A stretch of DNA of 64,000 bases from Undaria pinnatifida (lineage: Eukaryota > Sar > Phaeophyceae > Laminariales > Alariaceae): the NCBI GenBank assembly GCA_012845835.1, contig JABAKD010000019.1, positions 6,309,494 through 6,373,493 of the forward strand. Reading direction: 5' to 3'. The notes beneath the pieces were generated by a model. The model ran no database searches and was not told where the DNA came from. It was given only the letters and a program-made list of their open reading frames with translations. The position numbers and the translations under genes are program-made. Below, in pieces: positions 22,101-63,029 of the stretch (positions are counted from its first letter, which is position 1; each line of letters opens with the position of its first letter).

Positions 22101-25100
22101 TTTTTTTGTTTTTGATTTTCACACTTCTACTTTCCAGCTTCTGGACAAGCCGTGGTCACAGGTGTTGTCCCTTTTCCTCCCCGGTTCTTGCCTTCAATTT
22201 TTATCGCGCATAGGGTGCAGAAATCCCACTGCTCGTTGATTTTCATGGAGTGTTGCTAACTTCTCGCGCTTTCCGCAAGTCAATTTGTGCGCAAGAAAAA
22301 GTCCCCACGAATTTATACGAGTATTCACTCGGGGGGATTCGAACTCACGCAACTAGCCTATACCAGGCTCGAGGATAACCTGATACGCCACCGGGGTGAC
22401 CGGTAATACGGATGCGTGAGTGTCGACCTGACTTGATCCCGTGGATGAGGTGCGGTGGAGATAGCCACCCGGAAAGTCACCTCTTCGGGTAGTGTGGGAC
22501 TTGCGCAAGCTCGCCCACTAACTAAACCCCCGGCCTTGGGAAAAGAGCCTTCCGCCGGACTTTTGGTCCAGTTACGGCCTACCCTGCCCACTCGGGCGTT
22601 GGGCCTCGACCGTATGGCAATGTATTTACAGCAGAAGTACTCAGTATCATCTACTACAGCAGTAGTACAAGTACTGGGGGTATTATACGACCGTCAGGCC
22701 CAAACGCTGAGAAGGCCGTGCGTTCAGCGGTTTGTCAGCTCTATCCAGTAGCCTTTGCGATGTTCTGACCCTACAAGTCATACCAGATAAAGTACCAAAT
22801 ATATTTCGATGGTTGAGGTGGTCCGCACATTCTTTATCAGTTTTTCCAAAACGCGCGGTGAAGCCGCGCTCGGGTCGGAGCCCTAGCCTGGGTTAGGGTT
22901 GGGGTTAGGGTTGGGGTTAGGGTTGGGGTTAGGGTTGGGGTTAAGGTTGGAGTGGGTCGACGCCCTCTTGCAATTTGAACAAATGAAAAGCACAAAAAAC
23001 ACAAAAAAACAGCTTTAAAACCTCTATAAAGTGACATATATTTGGTACTTTATCTGGCACGATTTGTGGGACAAAGCCCGTAAAGGCGCGTCGAGGGCTC
23101 TATCTAATCGATTATAGTTGCTCGTACATACGTATACGTAGCCGGCTTCGCTTCTTGAGTGGGTGCGGTGACCCCTTGGAAGAGTAAAACTTCGCTTCTC
23201 GAGTGGGTGCGGTGACCCCTTGGAAGAGTAAAAAACGATATCCATTAAATGTTCATGGTCGTCATATCCTACGCGCAACTTATGGTATGCTTTATGTTAA
23301 TAATACGTACGACTATTACTTGTTGTTGTTCTCACATTAACTCGCATAATAAAGTCCGTGGTCACAGGACAGGCTCCAGTCACTCTGGAGCTGAGGAATA
23401 CCCCAGGGAAAAACACAAACAACCCATGGTGGTACACGCATATATCACAGCTGACGCAATTCATGCCTCCACCAGAAACATACGTATAAAAGGGAAATCG
23501 GGAGTCAGTCTATCAGACTCAGAAGCTCGGAAGAGGCGGTAGACCTTTGCTATGTGGCCGCGCGGGTCTTTAAGGGAGTGTTGTCTTGGTAGTTGGGCAG
23601 GCGTGGTACGCTGTTTGGATCGGATTCGGCGGTTCAGAACTCAGTGAGTTGTCGTTCGATGTGAATGCGGCGCAGCCGCTTTTTCTGGCCAGTTTCGGCC
23701 CGTTTTTGATCTCAGGTTCGGGCCGGGGTTGGGGTTACTAACCTTTTAACAACTGCACCCACTTTTTTTTTGCGACAAACTGCTTGGAAATAGTGTGTGT
23801 GTTTGTGTGTTTGTGTGTGTGTTTTCAGTAGTAAAAAGGGTCAAGGTTAGGACATCCATGGTGTGTGTGTTACGGCCGAAAAACGCCGCGAACGGCGGCG
23901 CCCGTTCGAGAGGGCCCGTTCGCGCGAAAGTTGACCAAGATAGAGGACGGCATGCATCCGCGAACGGCAACCGCAAAAGTTGAAAGCCGATCACGCAAGG
24001 CGTGGAACAAGCGGCTGTGGCATTCGATACATGATATACGTGGTACAAAAAAATAAGGTATATGAACATGTACATACGGAGTCGTTTTCCCTCCAGAGTC
24101 TATTGTTTACTTTCCGCGAACGGCAAAAAAAAAAATGCGAACGGCGCATGGGGTTTCGCGAACGCAAGCGTACGTGTTGCGTGTAACACGCGCCCGTCCC
24201 AGATGGGTTGGGTCTACCCCCGTATTTATTCCTCTAGGAAGTGCTTCCGAGCCCGAAGACGCCAGCAGCCTACCCCCCCCTAAAGATCTGTGCGATCAGA
24301 TTTTAAGGGCGGCTCCGACGAAGTCGGTCGTGGGTTGCAGGCAGCAGTTGCCTTTTTTTCTCTCTTTTTTATCCTCCGGCGGATGGGGAAAAAAAAAATA
24401 AAGCTTAAGCTCACCACACTCCCACGTATTTTCATACATATCGCGTGCCAATTGAACTCTGTTGTATTCGCAATCCAACGCTAGCTGACGTATCCTTCAA
24501 TCAGCTCCCGTTGTAGCGACAATACAAGCAGCTGCTACTATTATTTCAGAAGAGGTCCCCTCCGTGATGCCGGTTTTTCACGCTATATTTCTTGTGAAAT
24601 CGCTTGGCACAGACGGAAACGACCAAGTGTGGCAGTATGCGGTGTAGTGTCGGTTGCCGCTATTGTGCCGATGTTTCCCTTTATAGTACACATACCGGCA
24701 CTAAAGAGGGACCACTGCTGCTGTAACTAGACGGAATTACGGGGCAAGTTCGACTCAGCCTACTTGGCTTGTTGAGTGGGCATGGCAAAATCCCTTTATT
24801 GGAAGAGTAGAAAAACGAACGGTCAATGTTGATGCTACATGAAATTGTCAGATTTTGTCCCCCTCTAAAACGGGTTATATAGTTTCCGCGCATAGATTGG
24901 TTAACGTCACCCTGTTGACCCTGGTACAAGCTACACTGTAGTTCCAAGGAGAGTCACCAACCTATATCCTTAATGAGGACACACACCCAGTGATGCGCGC
25001 GATCGGAGTATCACACACAGCTTGCGAAGATGAGTTTCGACGAAAAATCTTCGATCTCACAGCTGGGGCGTGTTTTTATTTGCATATTAAAACTCGCTTA

Positions 25101-55017: not shown

Positions 55018-55870
55018 GCCCAGTAATGTACATAAGTCAAAGGGGGGTACGAGGGGCTCCACGGGACGCGTCAGACTTACGCAGCACCCCGCCAGAGCCA
55101 GTCGCCCAGTCTGATGACCACCAGAATCCGTAATTGCCGCCTCGAGAAGTGCTTCAAAGCAATGGCAGGAAGTCGATGTTGGTACGGCCCGGGTCATCGA
55201 GGAACCGAACAATGTAGGAGTCAGGCGAAGGGGTCTCGGGCCAGGCTTGGTGGGCGATTTTGCCTAGCCATCAGAGGCCGTCGTGCGCCTTGCATCAGAG
55301 GTGAGCACCTGCGTGGGGAGCGGAAAAGCTAAACGGGCGAAGCCAGAATGTGCGCGGAATGGCGCTGTATCCGGGGGCGCGAAAGTTTCGCCCCGGAGCT
55401 TCAACAATTTGCGGTTCCCGGCTCCGGTACGCAACTACTGGCGGTATAGGTGGTTTGCTTGTTGTTGTGGGGGAGTGTCAGACCAGTACCTAGTGATGTA
55501 AAGCCGGAAATGTTGAAAAATATTGCGTTCTCAGGAAGGCGGAGGATTATCTCCCAGTGAGACTCGTAGAAAACCGCGATAACGCCACCATGACCGCGGA
55601 CAAGTTGGTGACCCATGATCTGTTTAACCCTGAGGCGTTCCGGCGGCGTTGAGATGTCGTCGAGGGTGTTATGGTAGGGGGGGACTATGTGTAGAATGGG
55701 TTGAGGACGTACTTGGTGAGGCTGTCGTCGGGGTTTTGGCAAGGCTTGCATGTATCAACACAGAGACGCGGCGGTTGAAGTCTTGTCCCGGCATCTTGGC
55801 AGGGAATATCAAGGTAAAGGAGCTTATCGTGAAGAGGCCCGCCGTCTGGAATGTCAGATGCCGGTGCGGG
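55018..55870 (-). pseudogene. Integrase C-terminal and chromo-like tail
   Basis: SKLSPNWAGPQKILVVGPAP, GGPLHDKLLYLDIP, LCVDTCKPCQNP, LTKYVLNPFYT; after a shift PPYHNTLDDISTPPERLRV, IMGHQLVRGHGGVIAVFYESHW; then near 55200 VRFLDDPG. This is the targeting/chromatin-reading end of gypsy integrases, broken by frameshifts. Confidence 0.85.
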
Positions 55871-56960
55871 GCCGACGACGAGGATTTTTTGTGGGCCGGC
55901 CCAGTTGGGAGAGAGCTTGGACTTGAGCACGATGGCGTTGGTGCCTCTCTTGGGATCTTGACAGATGATTGAGGCGAAGTTGTATACCCGCGCCCAATCA
56001 CCGGTAGCAATCGGAGGAGCTCGACGAAGAGCAGCTAAAATGGGGGCGTTACGGTGGTCAACACGCCAGAGAATGATCTTGTATCGCTCAAGGAAGTCGA
56101 GGTAGGCGCGTTGCTGGCGGGCGGTGGAGAGGTCGATGTACGCGAGTTGATCCCGATCCAAGCCTTGGTGTCCACCAATGTTCGAAAGGTCGAAAACGGT
56201 GAGGGGCAAGCAAGGGAGACGGCCCAAGTGTACTTCGTTGGAGGTCAGACCTGTAGGTGCTCTTCGCGTGCAGAAGTTGGATGTATCATTCAATTTATTG
56301 CTCGTTCCCGCTCATGGCGAGCATCAGAACTATCGTGTGATTGGCGCGCTCGACACGTCAGTTGGGTTTGGGGTGGTAGGCGCTGATGGTGATTTTGTTG
56401 ATGCCTAAACGTTGGTAGGCGGCACGGGCATACTTCAAAAAGAACAGCAGACAGTTGTTTGATAGCAGTGGGACCGGGCACCCCCAGAGAGGTATGTAGT
56501 AGTCATGAGAATATCAGCGGGGCCTGGAGCGATGAGCTGGGCCTCGCACGTGTTGGCGCGGTTGCTGAAGCGGTAGGTGAAGAGAAGGATGCAAGCGTTG
56601 CCCCGCGGTGTGAGGTGGACAGGTCCAAATTAATCGATGCTGACAAGGATTTCGATGCCGTTGGGTAACAAGGGAGGAAGGGTGGGCCGGCGGAATATTT
56701 GACGTGAAGCCTCGCACGCCTGGCATTTAAGGCGGTCGCAGCCGTCAAGGGGTGGAGATGTCCATACCGATCCATCCTCCAGAAAATTGCATATGCATGC
56801 TGAGCGTCCGAGAAACGCCGCAAGTGGTAGGAGGTTATGCTGTGACACGTGTGTAGGACCCACGGGCGAACTAACATAGGAACGTAAATGCGAGGTGCCT
56901 TATCAGAGGGTGATTGCGGAGTAGTGATGACTTGACCTACAGAGGGTGTGCATGGACGGT
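55870..56960 (-). pseudogene. Integrase with HHCC zinc finger and broken DDE core
   Basis: Zinc-binding block: YVPMLVRPWVLHTCHSITSYHL ... CDRLKCQACEASRQ. Core start: GIEILVSIDLFGP (first catalytic Asp). The second block reads CPVPLLSNNCLLF where the family has LLSDNG, so the second Asp is Asn (near 56455). The third reads ISAYHPKPN-stop-RVERANHTI with Glu kept. Then TGLTSNEVHLGRLPCLPLTVF, HQGLDRDQLAY. Several frameshifts and stops. Confidence 0.88.
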
Positions 56961-56981
56961 GGACGAAGAAGTACGGTGTCG

Positions 56982-58211
56982 TCATCGGTTGTGTGCAGTG
57001 GGCCATTTTGCAGCGAGAGCAATGACCTCGGGACGGAGCTGGCGGCGGGACGAAGGGTGGGTTCTACAGAAGGCCGTCCGGTGGCGGTCAAGGGAGTCAA
57101 GAGAAATAAAGCGAATGCCGACAGGACAGGTACGTCCAGAGCGTTGTTCACGTGCCCAGTCGGTGCAGGGAAAGCGTTCGATGCAACAACAGAGGTAGTG
57201 GTCGTACACAGGCTCGGCGACGGGTTCCGAAATACGGAGCGATGTTGGCGCAGGAGTCTGTAAGGCAGGGGTGGTCGGTGTTTGCACGGTGCGCTCCGGT
57301 GGAGAGGGGGCCTCTCGTAGGGCAAAGGTGCATCCAGTCGCGGCAGGAACTGTGGCAAGCGACAGGAGATCTTGTGTATTACGGCTGCGGGTGGTACTCG
57401 GTCGGTGGGGCTGCGGCAAACATATCATGGAGGGAGCGGGCGAGCGGCGGCGAGGCGTAGACGATCTTGAGTCGTGGTTGCCGAAGGCTGGTGATCCAAA
57501 CCAAAATCTGCAGGAGTCCGAGGGGTTTCTGCGACGGTGGCCGAGCGATGACGGGTCAGTGAATATATCAGGTCCTGACCAAGCAAGGAGGGTGGTCGAC
57601 ACTGAGACCCCCGAGGTGGCTAATGGGGAGACGACGAGTGGCCTGAACGCCAAACCAGAAGGAGCGCCAGCGGTCACGGCTGCTTGGTTACAGCGGGAAG
57701 GTGATTTGGCGGTGGATTCTTGAGCAGATGTTTGGCCGACGGAAGCACTGCAAGGTGAGCCGGCCGCAAGGTGTTGAACGTGGCGTTGGCTGGTGTAAAA
57801 CTTGCGAGGCGGTTCATCGACGGGGTATTGAACAAACTGTGGGCCGGCGGAAGCACCGGGAGACGATTCGGCGGCGCGGTCTTGAAAAACAACTGGGCCG
57901 GCGGAAACGCTGCGAGGCGAGTTGGCGGCGGAGTCTTGAACATAGCGTGGGCGGGCGAAAGCGCTGCGGGGCACGTCGGCAGCGGGGTCTTGAACACGAC
58001 GTGGGCAGAAGGGCGCTCTGCAAGGCGAGCCAGCGGCGAGGTCTTGAGCATAACATGGGCCGGCAGAAGGGGTGCAAACCAAGTCGGCAACGGAGTCTTG
58101 GACACAACGGGGGTCAGCGGACGCACGGCGAAGTGAGTCGTCGGCGGAGTCTTCAATATAAGTTAGACCTACGAACGAGGCGGGGGATTGAACCGGGTCC
58201 GAGTTGTCCAT
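56982..58211 (-). CDS. 409-residue open frame: minisatellite-expanded linker between RNase H and integrase
   Basis: Longest uninterrupted ATG frame in the window. Residues about 25-170 are eight degenerate 18-residue repeats of the form SAGP-VQD-AA-SPRSA, encoded by a 54-bp minisatellite (57710-58140). The rest is Pro/Ser/Thr-rich, and the last 80 residues carry FPCTDWAREQRSG and a Cys/His-containing stretch like the pre-integrase segment of related elements. It continues, after frameshifts, the same minus-strand element. Because the 54-bp repeat has no stops in most frames, long frames also run antisense and in another minus frame, so openness is weak evidence of function. Confidence 0.5.
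   Translation of the reverse strand: MDNSDPVQSPASFVGLTYIEDSADDSLRRASADPRCVQDSVADLVCTPSAGPCYAQDLAAGSPCRAPFCPRRVQDPAADVPRSAFARPRYVQDSAANSPRSVSAGPVVFQDRAAESSPGASAGPQFVQYPVDEPPRKFYTSQRHVQHLAAGSPCSASVGQTSAQESTAKSPSRCNQAAVTAGAPSGLAFRPLVVSPLATSGVSVSTTLLAWSGPDIFTDPSSLGHRRRNPSDSCRFWFGSPAFGNHDSRSSTPRRRSPAPSMICLPQPHRPSTTRSRNTQDLLSLATVPAATGCTFALREAPSPPERTVQTPTTPALQTPAPTSLRISEPVAEPVYDHYLCCCIERFPCTDWAREQRSGRTCPVGIRFISLDSLDRHRTAFCRTHPSSRRQLRPEVIALAAKWPTAHNR
57705..58140. repeat. 54-bp minisatellite, eight copies
   Basis: The plus-strand unit is GTGGGCCGGCGGAAGCGCTG plus CGAGGCGAG..GGCGGCGGAGTCTTGAACA. Consecutive junctions lie at 57841, 57895, 57949, 58003 and 58057 (period 54). Confidence 0.92.
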
Positions 58212-58479
58212 GCGTGGTCCGAACCGGCGAAAGTCGCCGAAGTCTTAGTCTGTAAGAGAAAGCGGATGAATTATGGGGAGGGGACGCGACTGCGGGGTAG
58301 CGAGCCCACCCAAGCCGATGACCGGGGTCGGAGTCAGTCCGCAGGCTTAGATGAGATAAATACACCAACTGGGTCGGGGCTGGTGAAGCGGTTTCGTCCA
58401 GTGCGGTCGAAGTCGGTGGCTGGTTGTGGGAAGCAGGATAGGAAGCCCGCGTTGCTGTTCGCCGAGCCTCTACGGTACC

Positions 58480-58860
58480 CAGAGTGTAAGTGTAGGCGTA
58501 GAGAAATTCTAGCCAGTGTTGGATGCGGGGGTTATGCTCGCCGACCTTGATGATGCTTTCGAGCGCCTTTTCGTCCGGGTATATCCATGAATTCATTGGT
58601 TAGATGGCCACGGAGGCGCTTGATAGCCCAGACGATGACCCCGGGTCAAGAGATGTCCAATTTCGCTCTTTGTCGAGGTTGGTATGATTGAAGAATACGA
58701 CGGGGCGGACGAAACCGTCAGGTTGCTCTTGTTCGAGGGTTACATCGAAACGGTCTTGGCTGGCATCGCAGCACAGGCAAAGTGGCCGGGGGTTATCGGC
58801 AACGGCATTCCAGTCCGGGTAGACCAAGACAGGTCAGGTGGCGAGTTCATGAAGTAGCTG
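58480..58860 (-). pseudogene. RNase H domain and connection
   Basis: YPDWNAVADNPRPLCLCCDASQD, then TLEQEQPDGFVRPVVFF, LDKERNWTSLDP, and after a shift KALESIIKVGEHNPRIQHWLEFL (58585-58510). This is the RNase H core of gypsy elements (CDAS; DHKAL with the DH lost at the break). At least one frameshift, near 58600. Confidence 0.87.
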
Positions 58861-58979
58861 TCAAACAATGACTTCCGTAGCCGGGGTAAAGACATGGTGG
58901 CGATATACTTTCGATAATAGCCAATGCCTCTCATGAGGAAATGGAGTTTCTTGCTGTTCTTTGGCCTCAGCATCTTCGT

Positions 58980-59992
58980 GACGGCGGTGACCTTGTCGGC
59001 GTGGGGCTAACGCCAGCGGAGGATGCCGTGTGCCCCAGGAAATCGGGCTTTGTAGCTCCAAGTTTGGCCTTAGCGGTGGGGAAAATTCATGTTATGCCGA
59101 CGGAATCGTTTAATGAGGGCGCGGATATTGTCGACGTGGGCGGCGGGGTCGGGAACGAAGACGATAAAGTCGTCAAGGTAGGCGGCAACGCGTTCGAGGT
59201 CCTTGATGGCTTTATTAATTACCTTAGCAAACCAATCGGGTGTGGCGCTGCTACCCTGGAGCATGACGAGCCATTCGAAGAAGCGGGTGGGGGTGCAGAA
59301 CGGGGTGAGGGGGATAGTATCCTTGTCGATGGTGGTCTGGTGGAACGACGACACCAGGTTGAACAAGGAGAGTCGAGTACCGGGTCAAGACGAGTGCTGG
59401 AAAGCTGTCCAAGTGAGCCGATGGGTTTGAGCTTCTTGTAGTTCACCGTTGTCCGGACGTTTCCGTCTTTCTTCGGGATCGCTACCACGGGGCCGGAGTA
59501 CGGTGAGGTCGAATACTGCATGAGGCCGGCGGCCAGGTACTGATCAAGTACCGCATTGGCCTTCATGGCGGCAATGGGAATAATGCGGTACGGACGGGAC
59601 ATGATGGGCACGCTGTCTAGGGGATGGAGATCTTGAACGGAATCAGGGAGCACGAGCAGAAATCTGTCTTGGACGTAGAGAAAACGTCGGAGAACTCGCA
59701 GATGACCTCCTTCACGGAAGAAACCACTGAAGTAGATCAACCGAAACCGTGGACGTTGAACGCGGAGGTGGGATGGCAGCCGGTCCCAGAGTCGGAGGAA
59801 GCCTGCCCACTGATCGTCACTCAGGCGTTCCAAACGTTTGGGACAGGGGTCTGGGTAGGGGGTGGTGTCAGCACGGGGGGGTCCGTTGTCGGCTGCGTGA
59901 ATATTGTCGAGCAGGGCGTAAATCACGGAGGTGGCGGGGGCTGAAGGTTGCGGCATGAAAAGGTCGTCAAAGGCGGGTAGAGGGATCTGCAT
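58980..59992 (-). pseudogene. Reverse transcriptase, Ty3/gypsy type
   Basis: The first frame (ATG at 59992) has a linker and then PYRIIPIAAMKANAVLDQYL, SPYSGPVVAIPKKDGNVRT and VNYKKLKPI (fingers and palm start). A frameshift near 59370 passes to a second frame with IDKDTIPLTPFCTPTRFFEW, QGSSATPDWFAKVIN and AAYLDDFIVF, where YLDD is the catalytic box. The second frame runs to about 59070. A further frame carries GIGYYRKYI (thumb/connection) near 58930-58890. Confidence 0.93.
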
Positions 59993-60559
59993 GCGGAGAG
60001 AAGAAATGGTTCCAAGGAGGTCGCCTAGCTCGATCTCGGTGTGACCTCTAAGAGGAATCCATTGGAATTCGTTGACGACGAATGTGTCAGTTTCGAAGGA
60101 GATTCCTTCGCGGGCAGCACGTCGACCAAGTAGTTTCCTGTGAGCACAAGGACAACCGAAGGGTGGACCAACTTAACGGCAATGGACGACGGTGTAGATG
60201 AACGCAAAACCGCTTCGATGCTGGAGACCTCAAGGTGGATGACGTCGTCCGTTTGGATGATATCCTGAACGAAAGTGGAAAGGCCGTTGGTACAGGGGTG
60301 CTGGCGGAGAGTTCTCCGAAGGTCGGTTACGATGGTTGGCGTGGGATGGTGGTGTGTGTGCGCAGTTCAAATCGCATCTAACTGTCGCGTCCAACAAAAC
60401 AGATATTCGCAAAGTACCGCGGGGAATTATGCGCGCCCATACTGCGAGTTTAGCGGAAGGGTTATCGCCATGTAAGAACTGGACGCTGAGCCGAACGGAA
60501 GTCACCCCAGGAACGAGGATTCGCATGCATCTCACAGGTGTACGATCCCTCGCCTCGGT

Positions 60560-60700
60560 GCTTCATGCTGATTCAGACCTCGGCGGAGATGAAGATCTGC
60601 GTCGAGTCGGTGTCCAGGAGGGCCACTAGACCGCAGCGGGAGGCGGAACTGGGTTCTCTATGCACTTTGATCCGTATGGTAAATGAGGCGTCGTCGACGG
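60560..60700 (-). pseudogene. Retropepsin-like aspartic protease block
   Basis: The minus strand reads LNGIITVDDASFTIRIKV, then GLVALLDTDSTQIFISAEV-stop. The active-site loop expected is L-L-D-T-G-S; here Gly is Asp (DTDS), which should abolish activity. Upstream is a proline-rich linker to the NADAR-like block. Confidence 0.75.
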
Positions 60701-60939
60701 TAATAATGCCATTCAGAGCGCGTGGGCCAGTTCTGGGACGAAAGACGGAGTTGAATCCAACGACTTAGGGCTAATTCCAACGACACTGACGTAAAGTGCG
60801 AGGGAAGAGTGTGTCGGGGATGAAGGGGAGGACAAGTTGGTCGAACGTAGAAGGCGTGGTCGCGGGGTTGGCTGGGAGTGCTTATCTCGCGAAACCTATT
60901 ATGGGTTGGAGAACCGAGGACGGGAAGGGGAGGGGGTGT

Positions 60940-61385
60940 GGGCGCGAAAAAATTAAGCAGGCAGTGGATCTTCACGAGCACATCGCCTACAAGGTCGGGT
61001 CCCGACCAGGTCGAAGGTTGGAGGACTCACGGATCATCAGGTTTGAACCCGACGCCCCAGATGAGGTCGTACGGATTAGCTTCAGCAAAGATTTAGTCGC
61101 CGGTGTCCACAAGCTGACCTAAGCGGGGGGGATAGAAAAAAATACGAGGTTGCTCTGGAGAACGATGTCGCGTTGATGTTGTTCCCGAAGATCTTGTCTA
61201 ATTTGGAGACAAAGGGCCCGACGCGCTTCTATCGCGCGGGGTTCCAGTCGCGATGTCGCCAAAGAGTTTGGTCTTCTCCGCCATTATGAACTGCTCCGCG
61301 CAGTTGTAGTGCTTGTTGTCGATGATGGTGAACGCCGAAGGTTACCGCTGCGAAAAACGGAAAAAAATCCCCAAAAACAAGAGTC
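60940..61385 (-). pseudogene. NADAR-like (ADP-ribose/NAD-processing family) domain, broken
   Basis: The minus strand reads FSQR-stop-PSAFTI, then YNCAEQFIMAEKTKLFGD, the hallmark NADAR/YbiA motif. After a frameshift comes QHQRDIVLQSNL, and after another VDTGD-stop-IFAEANPYDLIWGVGF, DDP-stop, STWSGPDLVGDVLVKI. This is the full motif order of the family: CAEQ.MMAEKA.LFGD, R..IV..GNLAKF, L..TGD..LVEASP.D.IWGIG, W.G.NLLG..LM.VR. The family includes YbiA-type enzymes and ADP-ribosylguanine hydrolases. At least three stops and two frameshifts make this copy non-functional. It ends about 250 bp before the protease block, on the same strand, so it is probably part of the element's polyprotein; capture of a host gene or a neighbouring pseudogene is the alternative. 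Confidence 0.82.
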
Positions 61386-61399
61386 TGTCACGTGTTAAC

Positions 61400-62110
61400 A
61401 GATGGGGCAACAGGGCCGGAAGGAGTGCAGTAGTCCTATGGGGCGTCCCTGTTGCCAGCTCAACAGTGGCTTTAAGTCCCGAGCTGTTCGGCGGTGCCGA
61501 GGCCTCCGGTGGGTGCTCCCTGGCGGTTCGAAGAAGCTCGTGACGGATAACTCCGGAGGTTCCTGCTAAAAGCACGCGACCGCGGCGACGAAGGAACATA
61601 TACTCGAACGAAGATGATGTACCTTCGCTAGTCCGCGGGAGGTGACGGTGAAGGTGGCTCCTGGCATGTTCTTGCTGACGTAGTGGTCGAGTCTTCCGGA
61701 ATAATCCGCTGTGAAACCGTCCATTGGGCCCAAGAAGAATGATCTGGTCGGCACGGGGTGGTCAGTTGGAAGTCCAGCGTTGCGGGAAGTCAGAGTAGTT
61801 GCTGTTTTTCCGCGGGATCGGCCGACCATGGTGGGAGTGCGCGGAAGGAATCGTTGAAAAAGAAATCAAAAAGGATTCGGAGGTCGATGGCCATCTAGAA
61901 GAGGCATTTGTGCCGGGGAGGGGGTTGATGCCACTGGTAGTCGTTGTCGCCGGGTCGTTCATAAGATTGGCAAGGTCTGTGGAAACTTCGGCAATATCAA
62001 ACAGGGTGCGGCGCAGCGCATCGATAGGAGACGTTGACGGAAGCGTCCTATATAGGATCGACAGGCCCACCTCCTCACGCCTACACCTCAAGCCAATCGC
62101 TTGAAACAAA
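61400..62110 (-). pseudogene. Possible remains of the gag region
   Basis: Minus-strand frames open at 61762-62109, 61566-61829 and 61342-61599 overlap end to end and lead into the NADAR-like block. No zinc knuckle or other gag motif is recognisable. The assignment rests only on position upstream of the protease. Confidence 0.3.
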
Positions 62111-62319
62111 GGGCCACCCCTTGGTCGAGCGGATAGTGTTAAAAAGGTAGAACAGGGGATGGGATGAGGAGACGCGAGAAAGCGGACGGAAACGCGGGCG
62201 TGGAGTGCCGGAACAAACGTGTTCGAGCGTCATGCGGTCTATGTGGCACAGCAGTCGCATGTGGTGCTGCTGGCGAATGTCACGAAAGAGTAATCATCAT
62301 CGACCTGTCAATTTGTGCT

Positions 62320-62895
62320 GAAAATGGCGCGAGTTGGTGTTGCCTTTGTGTTGAGGCGGCCTTTGACGCGCGTGCGAGGTGTTCGAGGCCGCAGAATTAG
62401 GAGCGGTAAGGACGGTCGAAGAGGAGGAGTTGCTAGACCACAACGGTCCGAGCGGTGGTGACAACGGCAGCAGCGACAGCGGCAGCGGCAGCGGCAGCGG
62501 CAGCGGCAGCGGCAGCAACAGCGGCAGCGACAGCGGCAGCGACAGCGGAAGTGGCAATGGCAGTGATGACGATGGAGACAGGCCCGGGATACAAGTCGGT
62601 GACACCCCCCCCGAGGATTCCGGCACGACTATTAGTTTGTACGTAAAATGGCGCGAGTTGTTGTTGCCTCTGTGTGTTGGGGCGATCCTTGGCGCGTGCG
62701 TGAGGTGTTCGAAGCCGCGGGGGGTTAGGAACGGTGAAGGCGATCGAAGATGAGGAGTTGATAAACTGCGACGGTGCAAGCGATGGTGACATCGGCGGCA
62801 GGAACAGTGGAATGAACTGCGGAAGTGGCAACGGCAGTGACGACGACGGAGACTGGCCCGGGGCAGAAGTCGGTGACACCCCCCCCCAGGATGCC
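62320..62895 (+). repeat. Diverged tandem duplication of about 270-320 bp encoding acidic Ser/Gly-rich sequence
   Basis: Copy 1 (62320-62620) and copy 2 (62645-62890) share AAAATGGCGCGAGTTG, GAGGTGTTCGA-GCCGC, GAGGAGTTG, GGTGACA-CGGC and AAGTCGGTGACACCCCCCCC. Both encode a VFEAA...EE(D)ELL...SDDDGD-PG--VGDTPP(E/Q)D pattern in the plus sense. Copy 1 holds a (GGCAGC)n tract (62465-62560) giving (SG)n. Confidence 0.82.
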
Positions 62896-63029
62896 GACAA
62901 TACTACCCCAGGGGCGACGTTAGCGTCTGAAGGTACCAGGCAACAGCCCAAGACGAAGAGGTCCCCGACCAAACGCAGCGGTCAAGGTACCTGGCGCCCC
63001 ATCCGGCGTCTCCTCTGCGCCGACTCTTT

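Follow-up and report, generated by a model that had tools for sequence, protein, structure and literature searches.

A YbiA-type NADAR domain in Pol of a Ty3/gypsy retrotransposon lineage of the kelp Undaria pinnatifida

The window analysed here is a stretch of 64,000 nucleotides from the kelp Undaria pinnatifida (contig JABAKD010000019.1, positions 6,309,494 to 6,373,493). A light-harvesting protein encoded in the same genome has its nearest relatives of solved structure among fucoxanthin-chlorophyll proteins. On its minus strand, from about 62.2 to 55.0 kb, the window contains a single old copy of a Ty3/gypsy retrotransposon with broken frames. This copy belongs to a lineage that carries a YbiA-type NADAR domain between the end of Gag and the protease. 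Within the lineage NADAR is a regular domain of Pol, a conclusion that we hold with near certainty. The fusion itself is already known: a NADAR-carrying Gypsy lineage, Gypsy-12_Ec32 and its relatives, was reported in 2025 from the brown alga Ectocarpus (PMC12477816), and the original prediction, made from the letters of the window, is not supported where it takes the arrangement as unknown. New here are its occurrence in kelp, its regularity within the lineage and a Gag-UGA-Pol layout.

The window copy and its lineage

The original prediction placed a domain with NADAR/YbiA motifs at 60940..61385. The domain is present; its extent is 60955..61356 on the minus strand, and in this copy it is a pseudogene. 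The YNCAEQFIMAEKTKLFGD motif lies at about 61310-61255 and the FAEANPYDLIWGVGFK motif at about 61090-61045, both on the minus strand. The remnant contains three in-frame stops and, judged by eye, changes frame twice. One frame, with in-frame stops, holds both the YNCAEQFIMAEK and the FAEANPYDLIWGVGF block, and the intervening stretch is in another frame (by eye); searched alone, this stretch has no Pfam match. When four unjoined pieces of the remnant are compared with PF08719, two match (E=0.0011 and 0.016, both under the Pfam cut-off) and two give nothing. Only a read-through of the frames, joined with X at the breaks, passes the cut-off, at E=4.4e-17 and 63.3 bits (cut-off 35.1). The NADAR of an intact relative, used in tblastn with no joined query, recovers window positions 61356-60967 at E=1.7e-19. 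The equivalents of the catalytic residues E43, K50 and E125 are all present in the remnant (by eye).

Four subfamilies of the element are distinguished: A (copy L009), A' (L014), B (L024) and C (L017). Protein pieces of L009 and L024 match the window in the order Pol N-terminal part (Pol-N; L024 only), NADAR, protease region, reverse transcriptase (RT), RNase H and integrase. The Pol-N remnant, upstream of NADAR, spans 61495..62158 on the minus strand, on which all parts that follow also lie, and aligns with L017 2192-2863 at 68% DNA identity; the tblastn match of L024 Pol-N lies at 62169-61930 (E=1.9e-5). The protease region is at 60306..60737 (E=1.0e-25 with L024 and 2.0e-19 with L009), followed by the RT remnant in several frames at 59012..60157 (E=7.7e-93 with the L024 piece). 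RNase H and the linker after it occupy 57510..58890 (tblastn E=5e-55, and DNA alignment with L017), and the integrase with its C-terminal tail occupies 55043..57308 (E=1.4e-55 and 3.4e-79 with L024 pieces). L017, a diverged copy, aligns in pieces to the same span at 65-76% DNA identity, with NADAR at 65%, and gives the best alignment to the window among the four copies compared. The tblastn matches and this alignment agree with the predicted position of NADAR in line with protease, RT and integrase on one strand. From 62 kb to 8 kb beyond the window end, the Gag pieces of L009 and L024 find no recognisable match, and no pair of long terminal repeats (LTRs) around the copy is recognised, the only matches being 49-80 bases long. 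A 54-base tandem repeat (6.5 copies, 67% matches) at 57803-58153 interrupts the RNase H-to-integrase part of the element. Just upstream of the Pol remnant, at 62312-62905, a sequence of about 200 bases is directly repeated in imperfect form, along with a GCAGCG microsatellite.

Following the check proposed with the original prediction, the Undaria genome (511,146,479 bases) was searched with the PF08719 profile. The best 150 of 1454 candidates are all above the cut-off, with a best E value of 1.4e-49, and 14 of them lie in open frames, five of exactly 2371 and nine of exactly 2473 codons. Nineteen ten-kb loci were picked from NADAR matches across the score range, together with one beside the window, and NADAR is therefore present in them by choice. 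The one-strand order NADAR, protease, RT, RNase H, integrase is found in all 19. Eighteen of the loci have Gag and 17 have Pol-N; L019, which begins inside NADAR, has neither, and L017 is without a Pol-N match in this survey. In relatives such as L009 and L024, the five domains from NADAR to integrase lie within one open frame, with NADAR at codons 408-557 of the 2473-codon frame of L009. Searched in pieces against Pfam, L009 and L024 give matches above the cut-off for NADAR, RT, RNase H and integrase and under it for the protease; an ALLDTGSP protease motif is visible by eye in L009. The chromodomain PF00385 after the integrase is under the cut-off in both copies (E=0.11 and 0.13). The Gag pieces of the two copies match no Pfam family, and a zinc knuckle, CLNCHEDTHSLRNC, is seen by eye in L009 Gag. 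In the stretches of flank examined for L009 and L024, no LTR pair was found. L019 is the exception among the ten-kb loci, with repeats of 57-148 bases close to its ends, and a 491-base LTR-like stretch is common to the L024 downstream flank and to L061, where it lies upstream of RT.

A search of the same genome with an RT piece gives 1970 candidates, of which the best 150 were considered; counts from both searches are lower bounds. At least 84 of the best 150 RT matches have a same-strand NADAR upstream among the NADAR matches listed, and the other 66 have none listed. The spacing between NADAR and RT is 1950-2050 bases in 72 of the 84 paired copies, with 31 at 1968 and 13 at 2037. This spacing and the order of the 19 loci bear out the earlier suggestion that the lineage carries the domain.

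For 20 of the 66 RT copies, the 951 bases at the expected place were read, which run from the Pol-N end through NADAR into the start of the protease region. NADAR is present in four and absent in 16. All 16 are also without the adjoining Pol-N end, and 15 are without the protease-region start, there being no element sequence at that place. The sixteenth, L063, retains the protease-region start, fused upstream to an LTR-like stretch. Because this stretch is common to L061, L062, L063 and L066, these four copies look like internal deletions. An element with gag and protease and no NADAR, the case named in advance as contrary, is not seen in the 20 of 66 copies, in stretches that stop short of Gag and of the protease active site. 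L061, L062, L063 and L066 lack Pol-N and NADAR, and in them the LTR-like stretch is found a short distance upstream of Pol sequence. In three of these copies an open frame of 1851-1908 codons covers RT, and the four are possibly recurrent deleted, non-autonomous forms.

Among the listed NADAR matches, 66 have no listed RT. Twenty of these were read downstream and all 20 run into the protease region; six more sit in ten-kb loci with element context. Element context is thus found for at least 110 of the best 150 NADAR matches (84 + 20 + 6), the remaining 40 being outside the context survey. No stand-alone NADAR occurs among these 110; a host gene may lie among the other 40 or the lower-scoring matches of the 1454. 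In L084, L086 and L087, RNase H comes less than 1 kb after NADAR and a short piece of the protease region, and the space between has no RT match.

Taken alone, the window copy, broken and single, would allow a host NADAR gene or an unrelated insertion to be a chance neighbour of one gypsy remnant. The domain order in 19 of 19 loci, the narrow spacing in 72 of 84 pairs, the protease region after 20 of 20 NADARs and the Ectocarpus publication (PMC12477816) refute this explanation, to which we give next to no weight. Local insertion of a host NADAR gene is likewise ruled out by the near-constant NADAR-RT spacing and the element context.

In L009, L011, L023, L024 and L025 a TGA closes the Gag frame, and the sequence after it stays open in that frame. 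The junction TGA is at 1775-1777 in L009, 1848-1850 in L011, 1776-1778 in L023 and 2115-2117 in L024 (oriented). L010 has the same TGA, yet its two long frames differ. Of the 16 loci in which a junction was found, 15 have TGA there, a count in which copies within one subfamily are not independent; the other, L012, has CGA within a short 76% alignment, and three of the 19 loci gave no junction. The TGA is kept in both subfamilies A and B, although their adjoining Pol-N is just 28% identical. The UGA between Gag and Pol is likely a programmed readthrough site. With this UGA in between, one uninterrupted frame from gag to integrase, the layout to be checked under the original prediction, is not supported. 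The main text of the Ectocarpus report (PMC12477816) contains none of the terms "readthrough", "frameshift" and "stop codon".

Family, conserved residues and origin of the domain

Open NADAR domains of the lineage are above the PF08719 cut-off (E=5e-52 for A and 3.2e-50 for B), and A, B and C pass the cut-off of NCBIfam TIGR02464 (YbiA type). Pairwise identity between the NADAR domains of A, A', B and C is 42-69%. The structure PDB 8bau is matched at E=1e-14, and A and B have counterparts of E43, K50, R79, W89, E125, D130 and W133 of the published NADAR (residue roles from PMC11543638). The published residues E43, K50, K75, G78, R79, V81, Y84, D86, W89, R93, E125, D130 and W133 fall in register on 8bau with an offset of two, and 8bau is therefore taken to be the Phytophthora nicotianae NADAR of PMC11543638. 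An alignment of six copies from the four subfamilies has 33 invariant columns out of 152, which include E27, K34 and E107 of L009, the equivalents of E43, K50 and the YbiA-type glutamate E125.

Among prokaryotes (best 80 of 230 matches), the top matches come from one Planctomycetota and one Polyangia assembly and share 59% identity with subfamily A. A NADAR tree was built from 55 hand-picked rows, with 35 of the 80 prokaryotic loci, all 12 viral relatives and eight fetched element copies. In this tree, the element rows are placed among prokaryotic rows. The A/A' and B/C groups fall in one weakly supported part of the tree, together with the Planctomycetota/Polyangia cluster and others. Support for a single origin of the element NADARs is 57/59, and for B with C 90/38. 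The apparent bacterial affinity of the element NADARs agrees with PMC12477816. A viral origin gains no support: none of the 12 IMG/VR relatives is placed inside the element groups, in a tree whose deep forks are weak and for which no search by name was made for phaeoviruses. An identical YbiA-type NADAR protein, 55% identical to that of the element, is encoded by three IMG/VR contigs (L089, L090 and L091) whose sample numbers differ.

Possible roles of the domain

The NADARs that have been characterised, including an oomycete one, take ADP-ribose off guanine (PMC11543638); what NADARs do in eukaryotes is described as unclear (PMC11125620). The element NADAR is probably a working hydrolase, and a role against ADP-ribosylation is plausible. 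In the mechanism that we favour, Pol, with NADAR near its start, would be made by ribosomes that read through the in-frame UGA after Gag, and NADAR would for this reason enter the particle in low, Pol-like amounts. There it would take ADP-ribose, or a similar N-glycosidic adduct, off guanines of the element RNA or single-stranded cDNA. The template would thereby stay copyable when ADP-ribosyltransferases modify nucleic acid. That removal of ADP-ribose from the element's own nucleic acid is the main job of the domain is proposed tentatively. It is unlikely that the domain serves as a counter-defence against a host system. We would regard as similarly speculative the fullest version, in which an active guanine de-ADP-ribosylase, delivered by UGA readthrough, would shield RNA or single-stranded cDNA from an undescribed brown-algal defence and would be a eukaryotic counterpart of the anti-DarT antitoxins.

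In favour of this mechanism count the profile and structure matches, the invariant catalytic residues, the Gag-Pol UGA, a NADAR identity between A and B above that of the adjoining Pol-N and the protease region, and dN below dS between subfamilies. NG86 estimates of nonsynonymous (dN) and synonymous (dS) divergence give dN/dS of about 0.15 for A-A' (dN 0.213, dS 1.446), 0.30 for B-C (0.439, 1.463) and 0.27 for B-A' (0.520, 1.909), values that are rough because dS is high to saturated and because dN is raised by L014 (A') and L017 (C) being decayed copies. In the remaining three NADAR pairs dS is saturated. Several results weigh against the mechanism. Over 64 copies, which are mostly decaying, E43 is retained in 57, K50 in 59 and E125 in 60, only modestly above the column mean of 0.85, and W89 and W133 are mid-rank. 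RNA folding in the 100 bases after the UGA is not above that of shuffles (z -0.73 and -0.66). Searches of the genome for host ADP-ribosylation writers give no candidate for a DarT-type enzyme and, for PARP, a single partial match in a 71-codon frame, with the controls silent. The search for ART gives no match and its controls are silent too, so that it is uninformative.

The authors of the Ectocarpus report propose, by analogy with RNA-virus NADARs, that the domain takes part in RNA processing (PMC12477816). The targets of NADAR would then be RNA intermediates of transposition, at their ends, at NAD-derived caps or in ADP-ribosylated form, and the domain would have no part in countering a host defence; the NAD caps are our addition. 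Viral NADARs have been linked to RNA repair or to ADP-ribose derivatives (PMC9503650). The tested NADAR substrate, however, is guanine-ADP-ribose in DNA, and the relevant passages of PMC11543638 show no RNA substrate for a NADAR; we consider RNA processing possible but rather improbable. A weaker candidate still is a small-molecule N-glycosidase comparable to bacterial YbiA, which would clear ADP-ribose signals, or nucleotides that are damaged or of riboflavin type, from around the particle. TIGR02464, whose cut-off is passed by A, B and C, carries the name "riboflavin biosynthesis intermediates N-glycosidase"; the name of a model is not a test, and the sequence offers no reason for such an activity in Pol. 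The domain might instead be a binding or structural module that only holds ADP-ribose or nucleic acid and so serves packaging or targeting, with catalysis dispensable. NADAR does diverge faster between A and B (49% identity) than RT (69%) and RNase H (59%); the protease region is at 44% and the adjoining Pol-N at 28%. The invariance of the E43, K50 and E125 equivalents over A, A', B and C, and their presence in the window remnant, argue against a pure binding or structural module, which we think doubtful.

To return to adduct removal, the keeping of NADAR through the divergence of the subfamilies suggests that in brown algae reverse transcription or the survival of the particle benefits when ADP-ribose-type adducts are taken off. 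If true, this would hint at a so far unrecognised ADP-ribosylation of nucleic acid in brown algae and make it testable.

Other features of the window and related systems

Numerous direct repeats lie in the window between 39800 and 49140. They are several hundred bases long, diverged (about 65-72% alike) and rich in TGT/TGG triplets, and are possibly a tandem gene family or a repetitive protein. An interstitial telomere-like GGGTTAGGGTTG array of about five copies is present at 22890-22950.

The prokaryotic YbiA-type NADARs resemble the element domain with up to 59% identity to subfamily A; to our knowledge, none is in a retroelement. The P. nicotianae NADAR (PMC11543638) is related in sequence (E=1e-14) and has the catalytic E43, K50 and E125 in common with the element. 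It differs in being a stand-alone protein, whereas the element NADAR is inside a polyprotein, and its Y84 and D86 are not kept in subfamilies A and B. A stand-alone NADAR has also been described in Ectocarpus (PMC7922944). The Gag-Pol junction resembles the gammaretroviral Gag-UAG-Pol readthrough (PMC5009743) in having Gag and Pol in one frame with a single stop between them. Unlike the gammaretroviral junction, that of the kelp element has UGA and no downstream fold above shuffles, and its readthrough is inferred from sequence.

In the literature search, no other title was recognised as a NADAR-retrotransposon fusion, among the top rows of the longer lists and with most subscription journals outside the scope. 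The closest system known is Gypsy-12_Ec32 of Ectocarpus with its relatives (PMC12477816), compared here by description only. Gypsy-12_Ec32 has a putative C-terminal chromodomain; the kelp copies have sub-threshold PF00385 matches after the integrase. The Ectocarpus genome is 200.2 Mb against 511 Mb in Undaria. In both elements, NADAR is at the same place in Pol.
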